In this document: positions 268 to 47,415 of the stretch, piece by piece
Layout: each line of letters opens with the position of its first letter
Numbering within the stretch: position 1 is the first letter of the stretch
Assembly: GCF_003711805.1 (NCBI RefSeq)
Contig: NZ_QXCP01000004.1
Location: 620,001 to 684,000 of the forward strand
Direction of reading: 5' to 3'
Length of the DNA: 64,000 nucleotides
Source: Brachybacterium sp. EE-P12
GTDB lineage: Bacteria > Actinomycetota > Actinomycetes > Actinomycetales > Dermabacteraceae
Made by a program: the position numbers and the translations under genes
The notes under the pieces: model-generated
What the model was told of the DNA's origin: nothing
What the model saw: only the letters and a program-made list of their open reading frames with translations
The model's database searches: none

Positions 268-816
268 GTGAGCACATCGTTCGAACGCGTCTCGCGCTTC
301 AGCGTCGGATACGACATGCGTGAGGTCGACGAGTTCCTCGCCCGCGCCCGCAAGGCCTACGAGGGCCGCGACCCGTCCTTCGGCGGGAGCGACATCACCG
401 CGGCGAGCTTCGGCACCGAGCGCGGCGGCTATGACATGCGCGTGGTCGACGAGGCGCTGGACCGCCTCTCGGACGCGTTCGCGCTGCAGGCCCGCGACGA
501 CGCCATCGCCGCTCAGGGCGAGGAGGCGTGGGTCGCGCAGCTCACCGAGCGCGCCGAGGTGCTCAAGGAGCGGCTCGAGCGCCCCGCCGGGGACCGCTTC
601 GCCCCCGCCGCGCAGGGCGAGCCCGCCTACGACAAGGCCGACGTGGACGCCCTGTGCGACCAGCTCGTCGCCTACTTCACCGACGGCCACCCCATGAGCG
701 TGGACGACGTGCGTCGCGCCGCCTTCGGGCGTCGCCGCGGCGCCGAGGGCTACCGCGAGGCCGTGGTCGACGTCTATCTCGACCATGTCGCGGACGTGAT
801 GGCCTCCGTGCCGTGA
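268..816 (+). CDS. DivIVA-domain-containing protein
   Basis: This is a 182-residue soluble protein with two short repeats typical of the actinobacterial DivIVA/Wag31-like motif: FSVGYDMREVDEFLARAR near residues 11-28, then GGYDMRVVDEALDRL near 52-66. A third degenerate copy (AYDKADVDALCDQL) lies around residue 125. Proteins with these repeats are small cytoplasmic relatives of the polar-growth scaffold, but they lack its long coiled coil, so a scaffold role is not implied. The GTG start is preceded by GAGGAAGGA. The stop overlaps the GTG of the dxr stump as GTGA, the coupling expected if a full dxr once followed. In related genomes this family sits just upstream of dxr-rseP. Confidence 0.75.
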   Translation: MSTSFERVSRFSVGYDMREVDEFLARARKAYEGRDPSFGGSDITAASFGTERGGYDMRVVDEALDRLSDAFALQARDDAIAAQGEEAWVAQLTERAEVLKERLERPAGDRFAPAAQGEPAYDKADVDALCDQLVAYFTDGHPMSVDDVRRAAFGRRRGAEGYREAVVDVYLDHVADVMASVP

Positions 817-884
817 CCGACGCGTCGCCGCGGCGCCTGATCCTGCCGGGCTCCACCGGGCTCCTCGCCGTGCAGGAGCGCTGA
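813..884 (+). pseudogene. dxr: Residual 5' stump of dxr (1-deoxy-D-xylulose-5-phosphate reductoisomerase)
   Basis: A 23-codon frame starts with GTG overlapping the preceding stop (GTGA) and reads VTDASPRRLILPGSTG, then LLAVQER and a stop. The first 16 residues match the start of Dxr, whose N-terminus is a basic residue pair, a hydrophobic strand and the NADPH-binding GSTG(SIGTQ) turn. Position supports this, because dxr normally lies directly upstream of rseP in actinobacteria. The remaining ~370 residues of the reductoisomerase are absent. The end of the frame contains AGGAG (874-878), the ribosome site for rseP, which may explain why the tail survived. The tail LLAVQER could be the old C-terminus joined by an in-frame deletion (inference). 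A chance short ORF is the alternative, but position, overlap and motif agree. Confidence 0.65.
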
Positions 885-886
885 GC

Positions 887-2230
887 ATGCTGCTCTTCGC
901 CCTCGGCGTGCTCGTGATCGCCGCGGGGCTCGGCCTCTCGATCGCCCTGCACGAGATCGGCCATCTCGTCCCCGCGAAGCTGTTCGGCGTGCGGGTCACC
1001 CAGTACATGATCGGCTTCGGCCCCACGCTCCTGTCCCGCACCCGCGGCGAGACCGAGTACGGCCTCAAGGCCGTCCCGCTCGGCGGCTACATCCGCATGA
1101 TCGGCATGTTCCCGCCGCACCGCGGGGAGCCCGAGGGGACGATCCGCGAGGACTCCACCGGGCTGCTCCAGCAGATCACCGAGATGTCCGAGGACGCGAA
1201 GGCCTACGAGTCCTCCCAGTACGGCCCCGAGGACGCCCACCGCACCTTCGTCGCGCTCTCCGTGCCGAAGAAGCTCGCGGTGATGCTCGGCGGCCCGGCC
1301 ATGAACCTGCTCATCTCCGTGCTGCTCATGGTGGTGCTGGTCAGCGGCATCGGCCTGCCCTCGGTGACGCCCACTGTGCAGAGCGTCTCGCAGTGCGTGG
1401 TCCCGGCCGATGCCCCCGCGGACGTCTCCTGCGAGGGGAAGCCGGCAGCACCGGCGCTCGCGGCGGGAATCCGGCCCGGCGACGTGCTGCGCGAGATCGA
1501 CGGGCACCGGATCGACCGCTGGGAGGACGTCACCGCCGCGGTGCGCGCCGCGGAGGACCGCACCGTCGACGTCGTCGTCGAGCGCGACGACCGCGAGCTG
1601 ACGCTCGAGGCGACCCTCGTGGTCGACGCCCGGCCCGTCCTCGACGAGAGCGGCGCCCCTGTGCACGCCGCCGACGGGGAGATCCTCACCGAGGAGGTCG
1701 GCTTCCTCGGCGTGGCCGGCACCCCCGACCTCGTGCCGCAGTCCCCGACCGAGGTGCCCGCGATGGCCTGGGACGCCTTCGTGCGCACCGGGCAGATCGT
1801 GCTGACCCTGCCGGTGCGGCTGTACGAGGTGGGTGAGGCCGCCTTCGGCAGCGCCGAGCGCGACCCGAACGGCCCCCTCGGCGTCGTCGGCGTCTCCCGG
1901 CTGGCCGGCGAGGTCGCCTCCGTCGATCAGCCCGGCTTCGAGCTGCGGGAGAAGACCGGGACGATGATCTCGATGCTCGCCTCGCTGAACATGGCGCTGT
2001 TCGTGTTCAACCTCGTCCCGCTGCTGCCGCTGGACGGCGGGCACGTCGCCGGGGCGCTGCTCGAAGGGGCACGGCGCCTCCTGGCGAGGCTGCGGGGACG
2101 GCCCGACCCGGGACCGGTGGACATGTCCCGGATGCTCCCGCTGACCAACGCGGTCGCGCTCGTGTTCATCGTGATGACGGTGCTGCTGGTGTACGCGGAC
2201 ATCGTCAAGCCGATCACCCTGTTCCCCTGA
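887..2230 (+). CDS. rseP: Site-2 intramembrane zinc metalloprotease, RseP/M50 family
   Basis: The product has 447 residues, normal for actinobacterial RseP/Rip1. It cleaves transmembrane segments of anti-sigma factors and other small membrane proteins inside the cytoplasmic membrane. The first transmembrane segment carries the zinc motif HEIGH at residues 22-26. A PDZ region spans about 165-245 (GIRPGDVLREIDG inside it). The third zinc ligand lies in NLVPLLPLDGGH, with Asp383, and a final transmembrane helix ends the protein. The ATG is 8 nt after AGGAG, which lies inside the dxr stump, and 2 nt after the stump's stop, so translation is probably coupled to it. The gene is intact although both usual neighbours, dxr and ispG, are reduced to stumps. 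Confidence 0.93.
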   Translation: MLLFALGVLVIAAGLGLSIALHEIGHLVPAKLFGVRVTQYMIGFGPTLLSRTRGETEYGLKAVPLGGYIRMIGMFPPHRGEPEGTIREDSTGLLQQITEMSEDAKAYESSQYGPEDAHRTFVALSVPKKLAVMLGGPAMNLLISVLLMVVLVSGIGLPSVTPTVQSVSQCVVPADAPADVSCEGKPAAPALAAGIRPGDVLREIDGHRIDRWEDVTAAVRAAEDRTVDVVVERDDRELTLEATLVVDARPVLDESGAPVHAADGEILTEEVGFLGVAGTPDLVPQSPTEVPAMAWDAFVRTGQIVLTLPVRLYEVGEAAFGSAERDPNGPLGVVGVSRLAGEVASVDQPGFELREKTGTMISMLASLNMALFVFNLVPLLPLDGGHVAGALLEGARRLLARLRGRPDPGPVDMSRMLPLTNAVALVFIVMTVLLVYADIVKPITLFP

Positions 2231-2333
2231 GCGTCGCAGGGGCCGCGGCGCGCCGCCGTGCACCCGGTCGCTGGGGTCCGTGCAGGTGCCGCGGACGTGT
2301 CGCGCCTCGCCTCCCGGGACCGCGACGGCAGTC

Positions 2334-2339
2334 CATAAT
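2334..2339 (+). promoter_or_regulatory. -10 element (CATAAT) driving a leaderless ispG stump
   Basis: CATAAT ends 6 nt before the GTG at 2346, so a transcript starting about 7 nt after the -10 would begin at the start codon itself. It is an AT-rich hexamer in very GC-rich surroundings. The promoter of the lost ispG therefore seems intact and would now drive the downstream GNAT gene. Confidence 0.5.
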
Positions 2340-2345
2340 GGGGCG

Positions 2346-2477
2346 GTGACTTCCCTGAGCCTCGGCGACCCCGCCGTCACGACGCCTCCGCCGGTCCTCG
2401 CCCGCCGGCGGACGACGCGCACGGCGAGGCTCGGCGACCTGCACGTCGGCGGCGTCCCCTCCGTCCTCGTGGGCTGA
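2346..2477 (+). pseudogene. ispG: Residual 5' stump of ispG (4-hydroxy-3-methylbut-2-enyl-diphosphate synthase)
   Basis: A 43-codon frame (GTG start, TGA stop) reads VTSLSLGDPAV, then a Thr/Pro stretch, VLARRRTTR and ARLGDLHVGG before ending. This is the typical actinobacterial IspG N-terminus: (M)TSLSLGMP, a Pro-rich linker, LAxRRxTRxxxVG and then VGG(xxPVSVQSM). Homology ends at VGG, and the catalytic barrel and the Fe-S domain (about 340 residues) are missing. The site is exactly where ispG normally stands, between rseP and the DUF4081-GNAT gene. The stop lies 5 nt before the GNAT start, so the deletion left the local operon spacing intact. The stump may still act as a leaderless leader peptide for the GNAT gene (inference). 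Confidence 0.72.
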
Positions 2478-2482
2478 GCCCC

Positions 2483-3334
2483 GTGTTCCGACGCGGCGGG
2501 CGTCTGCGCGCGGTGCGCTCCGGCACGGCTCAGGCCGCGCTCGATCTCGCGCTCCAGGACCCGATCACCAACGCGCTCGGCGGTGCCCGGCTGCGCGAGA
2601 CGATCGGCTCCGCCGCGCTCTCCCAGGAGTTCTCCCTCGTGGGCGAGGACCGGCGGCCGGAGGGCGTGCTCTGGCACGGGGTGAACCTCTCGCCGCTGTC
2701 CGCCTCCCCGGGCGCGCTGGACGAGTTCGGCGAGCACATGGCCGGGCGTCCCCGGCGTGCGAGCTCCGTGGTGGGGGAGCATGCGGCGATCGACCGGCTG
2801 TGGCAGACCCTCTCGGGCAGCTGGGGCTCGGCGGTGCGCGAGTACCGCTGGAGCCAGCCCCTGCTGCTCGCCGCACCGCCGGCGCAGATGCCCTCCCTGC
2901 CCGGTGCGGGGCTGCGGGCCGCCGAGATGCAGGAGGCCGCGGCGGTGTTCCCCGCCGCGGTGTCGATGTTCCGCGAGGAGGTCGGGATCGACCCGCTGCT
3001 CGGCGACGGCGGGCGCTCCTACCGCCACCGGGTGGGCGAGCTGATCCGGCAGCGGCGCAGCTACGTCGTGGTCCGGGGCGGTCAGGTCGTGTTCAAGGCC
3101 GACGTGGGCGCGCTCTTCGGCCCGGTCGCCCAGATCCACGGGGTGTGGGTGCGCCCGGACCTGCGCGGCCACGGACTCGGCCGCGCCGCGATGATCGAGC
3201 TCGTGGAGCGGGTCCGCCGCGACCACTGCCCGCAGGTCTCGCTCTATGTCAACGACTTCAACGAGCCGGCCAGACGCGCCTACGCCGCCTCCGGCTTCCG
3301 CCAGGTCGGGGAGCTGACGACGATCCTGTTCTGA
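2483..3334 (+). CDS. GNAT-family N-acetyltransferase with DUF4081-like N-terminal region
   Basis: The product has 283 residues. The C-terminal ~130 are a Gcn5-related acetyltransferase fold with the acetyl-CoA pyrophosphate loop RGHGLG at about 228-233 inside HGVWVRPDLRGHGLGRAA, and a final beta-bulge segment YVNDFNEPARRAYAASGF. The N-terminal half (ALDLALQDPITNALGGARL, PLLLAAP) resembles the DUF4081 module that accompanies this family beside ispG in actinobacteria. The substrate is unknown. The GTG start at 2483 has no strong Shine-Dalgarno sequence and follows the ispG stump stop by 5 nt, so translation may depend on termination at the stump. Confidence 0.82.
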   Translation: MFRRGGRLRAVRSGTAQAALDLALQDPITNALGGARLRETIGSAALSQEFSLVGEDRRPEGVLWHGVNLSPLSASPGALDEFGEHMAGRPRRASSVVGEHAAIDRLWQTLSGSWGSAVREYRWSQPLLLAAPPAQMPSLPGAGLRAAEMQEAAAVFPAAVSMFREEVGIDPLLGDGGRSYRHRVGELIRQRRSYVVVRGGQVVFKADVGALFGPVAQIHGVWVRPDLRGHGLGRAAMIELVERVRRDHCPQVSLYVNDFNEPARRAYAASGFRQVGELTTILF

Positions 3335-46431: not shown

Positions 46432-46437
46432 TAGAGT
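46432..46437 (+). promoter_or_regulatory. -10 element (TAGAGT), leaderless miaA start
   Basis: TAGAGT ends 6 nt before the GTG at 46444; no ribosome site is visible. Confidence 0.5.
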
Positions 46438-46443
46438 GCTGCT

Positions 46444-47415
46444 GTGGAGCACAGCGAGCAGGATCCGGGGCCGACGGGCGCGCGCAGCCCGCTGATCGCC
46501 GTGGTCGGTGCGACCGCCACGGGGAAGTCCGATCTCGCGATCGCGCTCGCGCAGCACCTGGACGGGGAGGTCGTCAACGCCGATGCGCTCCAGCTCTACC
46601 GGGGGATGGACATCGGCACCGCGAAGGTCACCGAGCAGGAGCGCGCCGCAGTGCCCCACCACCTGCTGGACGTGCTCGAGGTCACCGAGGAGGCCAGCGT
46701 CTCGGCCTACCAGCGCGCGGCCCGCGCGGCGATCGACGCGATCCGCGCCCGGGGGCGCACGCCGATCCTCGTGGGCGGCTCCGGTCTGTACGTGCGGGCC
46801 GCGCTCGACGACATCGAGTTCCCGCCCACGGACGCCGACCTCCGCGCCCGCCTCGAGCAGCGCGCGCAGCAGGAGGGGACCGAGGCCCTGCACCGCGAAC
46901 TCGCCGCGAGGGATCCCGAGGCCGCAGGCATCATCGGGCCGCGCGATGCCCGACGGATCGTGCGCGCGCTCGAGGTGGGCACCCTCACGGGGAGGCCCTT
47001 CACCGCCTTCCTGCCGCGCCCCCTGTACGTCGACCCCGCCACCGTCCAGATCGCGCCGCGCTGGGACCGCACGGTCCTGCACGAGCGCATCGCCCGGCGC
47101 GTGGAGCGGATGGTGGAGCAGGGGCTGCTCGAGGAGATCCGCGACCTGCGAGACCAGGGCCTGGACCGGGGACAGACCGCCCGTCGTGCCATCGGCTACG
47201 AGCAGGGCCTCGCCGTCCTCGACGGCACCCTGAGCTGCGCGCAGGCGATCCAGGACACGATCGCCGGCACCCGTCGGCTCATCCGCAAGCAGGACACCTG
47301 GTTCCGCCGCGACCGACGCATCACCTGGCTCGACGGGGGAGCGGAGGACCTGCTCGAACACGCTCTGGAGGTCATCGAGGCGCATACCGCAGCGAGCGGT
47401 CCGGCCCGGTCGTAG
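46444..47415 (+). CDS. miaA: tRNA dimethylallyltransferase MiaA
   Basis: The product has 323 residues. It transfers the dimethylallyl group to A37. P-loop GATATGKSD at 22-30, then VVNADALQLYRGMDIGTAK, HHLLDVLEVTEEASVSAYQRAARAAI, ILVGGSGLYVRAALD, DARRIVRALEV, ARRAIGYEQGLAVL and the zinc-less C-terminal KQDTWFRRDRRITWLD. The enzyme needs DMAPP, which makes a working isoprenoid source essential even though dxr and ispG are stumps here. Its TAG stop forms the first bases of the dapF -10. Confidence 0.95.
   Translation: MEHSEQDPGPTGARSPLIAVVGATATGKSDLAIALAQHLDGEVVNADALQLYRGMDIGTAKVTEQERAAVPHHLLDVLEVTEEASVSAYQRAARAAIDAIRARGRTPILVGGSGLYVRAALDDIEFPPTDADLRARLEQRAQQEGTEALHRELAARDPEAAGIIGPRDARRIVRALEVGTLTGRPFTAFLPRPLYVDPATVQIAPRWDRTVLHERIARRVERMVEQGLLEEIRDLRDQGLDRGQTARRAIGYEQGLAVLDGTLSCAQAIQDTIAGTRRLIRKQDTWFRRDRRITWLDGGAEDLLEHALEVIEAHTAASGPARS

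Follow-up and report, generated by a model that had tools for sequence, protein, structure and literature searches.

Actinobacterial mevalonate clusters of the Streptomyces CL190 type have the gene order mvk-mvaD-pmk-fni-hmgr-mvaS. The mevalonate operon of Brachybacterium has the same order, and 12 of its 15 carriers here have lost the MEP pathway. A previous report (Qabar et al., J Bacteriol 2026, PMC13001223) assigned MEP, MEV or both pathways to Brachybacterium species by gene presence and absence, and counted the genus among the cases whose ancestral route can hardly be guessed. Pathway variety in Brachybacterium is already published. In the passages of that paper drawn on here there is nothing on locus anatomy or scars and no tally of losses; the scars described below argue for MEP as the earlier route. 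In its section 18, 'Bacillus halotolerans' and 'Bordetella avium' are printed where Brachybacterium species seem to be meant.

Two described systems of translational coupling are close to what is proposed here. It has been reported that short upstream ORFs deliver ribosomes, and that MIRU elements become coupled, at -4 nt, to the gene into which they insert (PMC12548453). Like these, the ORFs of the present locus are short and would hand ribosomes on through a -4 overlap or a short spacing. Unlike the upstream ORF or inserted repeat in the passages cited, they are remnants of enzyme genes within a gene chain. For overlapping gene pairs, termination-reinitiation was described at ATGA/TGATG overlaps (PMC6728339). 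The overlap types given there are those at div/mini-ORF/rseP and, in Dermabacter, at div/rseP; that description concerns gene pairs and not what is left of lost genes. Among the matches listed in the open-licence literature searched, no report was found of relay ORFs formed by the wearing down of lost genes, or of such scars.

Results

Gene remnants in the window

The window is the whole stretch of 64,000 nucleotides that was analysed, and G000 is its genome. The nearest genome and sister to it is G004, a B. paraconglomeratum. As shown in Table 1, the locus contains a chain of three genes with a mini-ORF in each of the two gaps. The order div, rseP, GNAT is common to all 38 Brachybacterium genomes; rseP was found in 38/38 and stands beside div in 38/38. 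In 26 of the 38, the two gaps are occupied by dxr and ispG (the ispG of G027 is in pieces). The downstream partner is rseP for the dxr mini-ORF and the GNAT gene for the ispG mini-ORF, with div upstream in the chain.

Table 1. Positions of the features in the window
Feature	Position	Strand	Evidence or remark
div, DivIVA-repeat gene	268..816	+	TIGR03543, 198.7 bits (cut-off 154.2)
dxr mini-ORF, 23 codons	813..884	+	Dxr N-terminus through GSTG and last Dxr residues, in frame
Inferred dxr deletion junction	860..864	+	GCTCC microhomology; printed sequences, by eye
rseP-type site-2 protease gene, intact	887..2230	+	PF02163 Peptidase_M50, 134 bits over its cut-off
CATAAT, -10-like box	2334..2339	+	6 nt 5' of ispG start codon
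ispG mini-ORF, 43 codons	2346..2477	+	IspG N-terminus through VGG and IspG C-terminus, in frame
Inferred ispG deletion junction	2447..2454	+	CGGCGGCG; printed sequences, by eye
GNAT acetyltransferase gene with DUF4081	2483..3334	+	PF13312 and PF00583 above cut-off
MiaA gene, DMAPP consumer	46435..47412	+	Open frame, start not set; TIGR00174, 257.9 bits (cut-off 148.65)

An earlier note on this DNA had described a 23-codon dxr stump and a 43-codon ispG stump on either side of an intact rseP, and a MiaA gene in the window; the positions of the stumps, an rseP-type protease gene and MiaA were confirmed (Table 1). Against the TIGR00054 RseP model, the protease gave 117 bits, under the cut-off of 147.55. 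The TGA of div overlaps the GTG of the dxr stump (GTGA), the TGA of this stump lies 2 nt 5' of the rseP ATG, and the ispG stump stops 5 nt 5' of the GNAT GTG.

The origin of both stumps was examined by alignment with the proteins of G004. Alignment of the ispG stump with IspG residues 1-60 scored 128, and that of the dxr stump with Dxr residues 1-40 scored 61; in each case 0/5000 shuffles reached the score. Against the whole G004 proteins, 0/2000 shuffles were as good for either stump. The derivation from dxr and ispG that the earlier note had proposed was thus borne out, and its statement that only the 5' ends remain was not. The first 36 residues of the ispG stump align with G004 IspG and the last nine with the IspG C-terminus; the end of the stump, GGVPSVLVG-stop, matches GGAPSVSVG-stop of IspG, with 2/5000 shuffles as good. 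The dxr stump aligns with Dxr through GSTG, and by eye its end, LLAVQER-stop, resembles the G004 Dxr C-terminus, LLSARTR-stop. Both ends of each lost gene are therefore found at the syntenic place (the Dxr C-terminus by eye), and since they persist joined in frame, each stump is the product of an internal in-frame deletion. By eye, the octamer CGGCGGCG is present at both matching ispG places in G004, and GCTCC at both matching dxr places. These sequences suggest that the deletions likely arose at short direct repeats, at the junctions inferred in Table 1.

Isoprenoid pathway genes in the window's genome and in the genus

The content of isoprenoid genes was then compared. In G000, which is 99.99% complete, genome-wide searches for ispG, dxr, ispH and ispF gave zero matches, and the same searches were positive in 9-10 of 14 control genomes. 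The genome-wide search covered these four MEP genes; ispD was absent from its usual place, the one place where it was sought. HMG-CoA reductase was found in G000 within a six-gene operon, mvk-mvaD-pmk-fni-hmgr-mvaS, which includes a type 2 isomerase. The genes mvk, mvaD, pmk, fni and mvaS were over NCBIfam cut-offs, and hmgr was over the Pfam cut-off and below that of TIGR00533. By gene content, the mevalonate route to IPP and DMAPP is complete in this genome. The earlier note had supposed that the MEP pathway was discarded and that isoprenoids are made through mevalonate or by relocated genes, and had asked for the mevalonate genes to be sought. The gene content agrees with MEP loss and the use of mevalonate, and supports replacement of the MEP pathway by the mevalonate operon in this Brachybacterium.

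The same division was seen across the genus. Both ispG and ispH are present in the same 26 of 38 Brachybacterium genomes. HMG-CoA reductase was found in 16/38, namely in each of the 12 genomes that lack ispG and in four that have it. The full mevalonate operon is present in all 12 of the former, of which G016 is 81% complete and the other eleven at least 99%. Three genomes (G001, G003 and G030) carry ispG together with the whole operon, and the gene order of the operon is identical in 15/15 genomes. The fourth, G004, was rejected as a dual-pathway genome: its HMG-CoA reductase is of the class II 'degradative' type (TIGR00532 over cut-off), with no operon. This lone gene lies at L041:7448-8536. 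Because G004 has such an enzyme, HMG-CoA reductase alone does not mark the mevalonate pathway. In the genomes tested, ispF was found in 9/9 MEP-bearing and 0/6 mevalonate genomes, and it was absent from its usual place in 11/11 mevalonate genomes.

Two further genes near ispD were observed during the comparison. A small zinc-finger-like gene, with a below-cut-off score of 17.4 bits against CPxCG_zf, stands by ispD at L144:3406-3714 in G004 and at the corresponding place in L145-L152. It was present beside ispD in 9/9 MEP-bearing Brachybacterium and absent there in 11/11 mevalonate genomes, which makes it a possible MEP-linked partner. There was no match to it at the corresponding place in Helcobacillus, though ispD and ispF are present there. 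A second, degenerate IspD-like gene lies behind carD at L144:2558-3292 in G004 and at the same place in L145-L152; it reached 65 bits against PF01128, versus 145 for IspD, and was absent at that place in the same 11/11 mevalonate genomes. In G027 (L039; single contig, 85% completeness), rseP, ispG and ispH are each in two pieces, perhaps owing to sequencing errors.

The dxr and ispG sites across the genus

All 26 MEP-bearing Brachybacterium have an in-frame start of dxr in a 4-nt overlap with the stop of div, and from the dxr stop to an rseP start the distance is -4 to +3 nt. Both starts were set by script as the start codon closest to the neighbouring gene. All 12 mevalonate-only genomes contain an in-frame mini-ORF of 11-33 codons at the dxr site, with a GTGA overlap with the upstream stop. 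Its spacing to div is -4 in 12/12, and that to rseP is -4 in 11 and +2 in the window, with rseP in the frame of its protein matches. The lengths by genome are 23, 14, 14, 14, 33, 15, 17, 19, 11, 27, 27 and 27 codons, and most of the peptides are by eye no longer Dxr-like. Within one five-genome clade, the length changed at least twice more (11, 19, 27 codons).

At the ispG site, a mini-ORF of 24-43 codons remains in 7/12 mevalonate genomes. Its stop lies 5-7 nt 5' of the GNAT start in 7/7 (five by script; G016 and G019 by eye), and in the five sites with a script-placed GNAT start, the other two frames end elsewhere. A box AT[A/G]AT, 6 nt 5' of the start, is present in 26/26 MEP-bearing genomes and in the seven mevalonate genomes with a mini-ORF. 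The box and its spacing suggest a leaderless transcript from the ispG start. In the other 5/12, all from one clade, both site and box are erased, and GNAT starts 13 nt after the rseP stop in four genomes and 36 nt after it in G007. The clade of G009, G021 and G024 has kept the ispG mini-ORF at constant length with recognisable ends. Over the 36 N-terminal residues after alignment, the ispG stump of the window differs from G004 at 10, and the next relative, G002, differs at none.

Random deletions were simulated in dxr or ispG of G004, and 33% left the frame open to the old stop. No frame-breaking deletion was seen at the dxr site in the 12 mevalonate-only genomes or at the ispG site in the seven with a remnant. 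Against that chance of 33% per deletion, all 12 dxr sites and all seven remaining ispG sites have an open frame whose stop overlaps the next start or falls shortly before it. With six losses and at least two length changes, the chance of this is about (1/3)^8, some 1.5e-4, a rough estimate made after the fact. This frame argument was made once the pattern had been seen, and its base is the five or six losses described below.

Comparison with ispH, ispF and ribosome-binding strength

Other lost genes of the pathway were used for comparison. In eight MEP loci examined, ispH overlaps no neighbour, and xseA is on the other strand. Four of these loci continue after ispH with rmuC on the other strand and three with a same-strand gene at least 67 nt away; G003 has pieces of both. 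Since a same-strand gene follows at a distance in 3/8, ispH is a loose control. No ispH similarity was found beside xseA in 12/12 mevalonate genomes, and no stump was noticed in the 11 stretches read by eye; the G005 stretch was covered by the similarity search.

The gene ispF stands between ptsB and ilvA. In 11 mevalonate Brachybacterium, a relay with a normal start was found by eye in 1/11 (G021), and in 3/11 when CTG is allowed (adding G009 and G024). As read by eye, G016 and G033 have an ilvA that apparently starts within the stop of ptsB, the frame continues into ilvA in G000, and neither relay nor overlap was seen in G005, G007, G013, G019 and G034. IlvA was not found at the site in G011 and had no match in D. 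hominis. As a third relay case the ispF site was thus mostly negative, with no general frame keeping. A strong Shine-Dalgarno-like stretch is present at ilvA in G000, G009, G021 and G024. These observations suggest that coupling at a lost gene may be kept by a relay or by direct overlap, or may be replaced by a ribosome-binding site.

We also considered weak ribosome-binding sites as proof of coupling. The median Shine-Dalgarno-like pairing at rseP in mevalonate genomes was -4.95 kcal/mol, compared with -3.0 at random places, and the energies overlap the background; rseP in these genomes is not clearly devoid of such pairing. This line of proof was rejected, as pairing energies show no clear contrast with the background.

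Number of losses and probable movement of the operon

The tree built from div, RseP and GNAT (43 rows) requires seven changes for MEP loss, six of which are forced by well-supported branches, Dermabacter included. A tree of CarD, IlvA and XseA (23 rows), from other genome regions, is less resolved and also gives seven changes, four of them forced. A single clade of the 12 mevalonate-only Brachybacterium, and with it one loss only, was rejected on both trees (p-AU 2.5e-5 and 7e-66, respectively). Grouping of G019 with the clade of G005, G007, G011, G013 and G034 was not rejected (p 0.207), and the number of losses in Brachybacterium is therefore given as five or six. By these trees, MEP is estimated to have disappeared on five or six occasions within Brachybacterium and once more in Dermabacter.

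Among the outgroups, HMG-CoA reductase was found in both Dermabacter genomes and in 0/3 others, and the mevalonate operon is complete in both Dermabacter. In these (L074 and L078), dxr and ispG are absent from this locus, and by eye rseP starts inside the div stop in 2/2, with TGATG in D. hominis and GTGA in the other. Helcobacillus and two other Dermabacteraceae carry dxr in the same place. The scars point to MEP as the earlier state at these loci.

The genes flanking the mevalonate operon differ between groups. The tree of the operon disagrees with those of the hosts, and the operon has therefore probably moved between lineages. Vertical descent throughout was rejected: grouping the G001 operon with the operons of G009, G021 and G024, which are near relatives of G001, gave p-AU 1e-42. 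A plasmid donor was also considered. MvaS matched 51 plasmid records, 22 of them from Streptomyces; as all matches were below 60% identity, no recent plasmid donor was found.

Discussion

In this study, we found short in-frame remains at the place of dxr in all 12 mevalonate-only Brachybacterium and at that of ispG in seven of them. By gene content, MEP was replaced by mevalonate in the window's genome, and the joined ends show that internal in-frame deletions removed dxr and ispG there. We consider it reasonably likely that their remains were kept as relay mini-ORFs. Ribosomes that reach the end of div would begin again at the GTGA overlap, translate 23 codons, terminate and then reinitiate at rseP. 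Those loading at the putative leaderless ispG start would read 43 codons and restart at GNAT. A deletion that broke the frame would leave rseP or GNAT uncoupled, or the mRNA open to polarity. Selection would then retain promoter, start, stop and frame, and not the peptide. The stumps look kept because frame and spacing are preserved over repeated losses. The lack of any ispH trace, a gene that overlaps no neighbour, speaks for the relay reading too, as does the start of rseP inside the div stop in Dermabacter; the mixed ispF site and the erased ispG site of five genomes speak against it. Whether gene chains in general convert a lost enzyme gene to a relay mini-ORF, repeatedly, so that some operon upstream ORFs would be worn-down genes, is a wider claim to which we give an even chance.

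The main competitor is that the deletions were in frame by chance and that the remains are passive fossils, functionless and decaying. The earlier note had called them fossils; the remnants are real, and the frames are so regularly kept in relatives that this word may tell half the story. The stump peptides drift freely and had no Pfam or NCBIfam match over cut-off, which fits passive decay, as do the ten changes in the ispG stump of the window where G002 has none; the ispF site, with its lack of general frame keeping, fits as well. Chance, however, would keep the frame in about a third of deletions, yet it was kept at every dxr and every remaining ispG site, over five or six losses and later length changes, and we consider passive decay rather unlikely. 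A function of the small proteins themselves is improbable. The mini-ORFs are intact and have start signals, and that of ispG keeps its length and recognisable ends in G009, G021 and G024; between lineages, however, little beyond the frame is by eye in common, and five Brachybacterium and two Dermabacter do without the ispG mini-ORF.

Another alternative is that the pathway was lost once, in a common ancestor of the 12, and regained by the MEP-bearing relatives. The single operon gene order in 15/15 genomes would fit such a history, as would the four changes forced on the CarD-IlvA-XseA tree. It is very improbable, given that one clade was rejected on two trees from different genes, that each regain would have to bring genes back at no fewer than three separate loci, and that Helcobacillus and two other Dermabacteraceae carry dxr in the same place. 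There is scarcely any chance that the losses are artefacts of assembly or sequencing. The frame breaks in rseP, ispG and ispH of G027 indicate that errors exist in the genome set, but the same genes are absent from 12 assemblies, one single-contig and three two-contig, all with the mevalonate operon.

The scars point to a direction that was left open in print, with MEP first and dropped five or six times in Brachybacterium. The three dual-pathway genomes are possible intermediates. The pathway assignment predicts fosmidomycin sensitivity species by species. The genus offers a natural experiment on what persists when a gene in an overlapping chain turns useless: promoter, start, stop and frame, and not the protein. 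If the relay reading is true, translational coupling would be open to study by genome comparison, and one origin of short upstream ORFs would be at hand.
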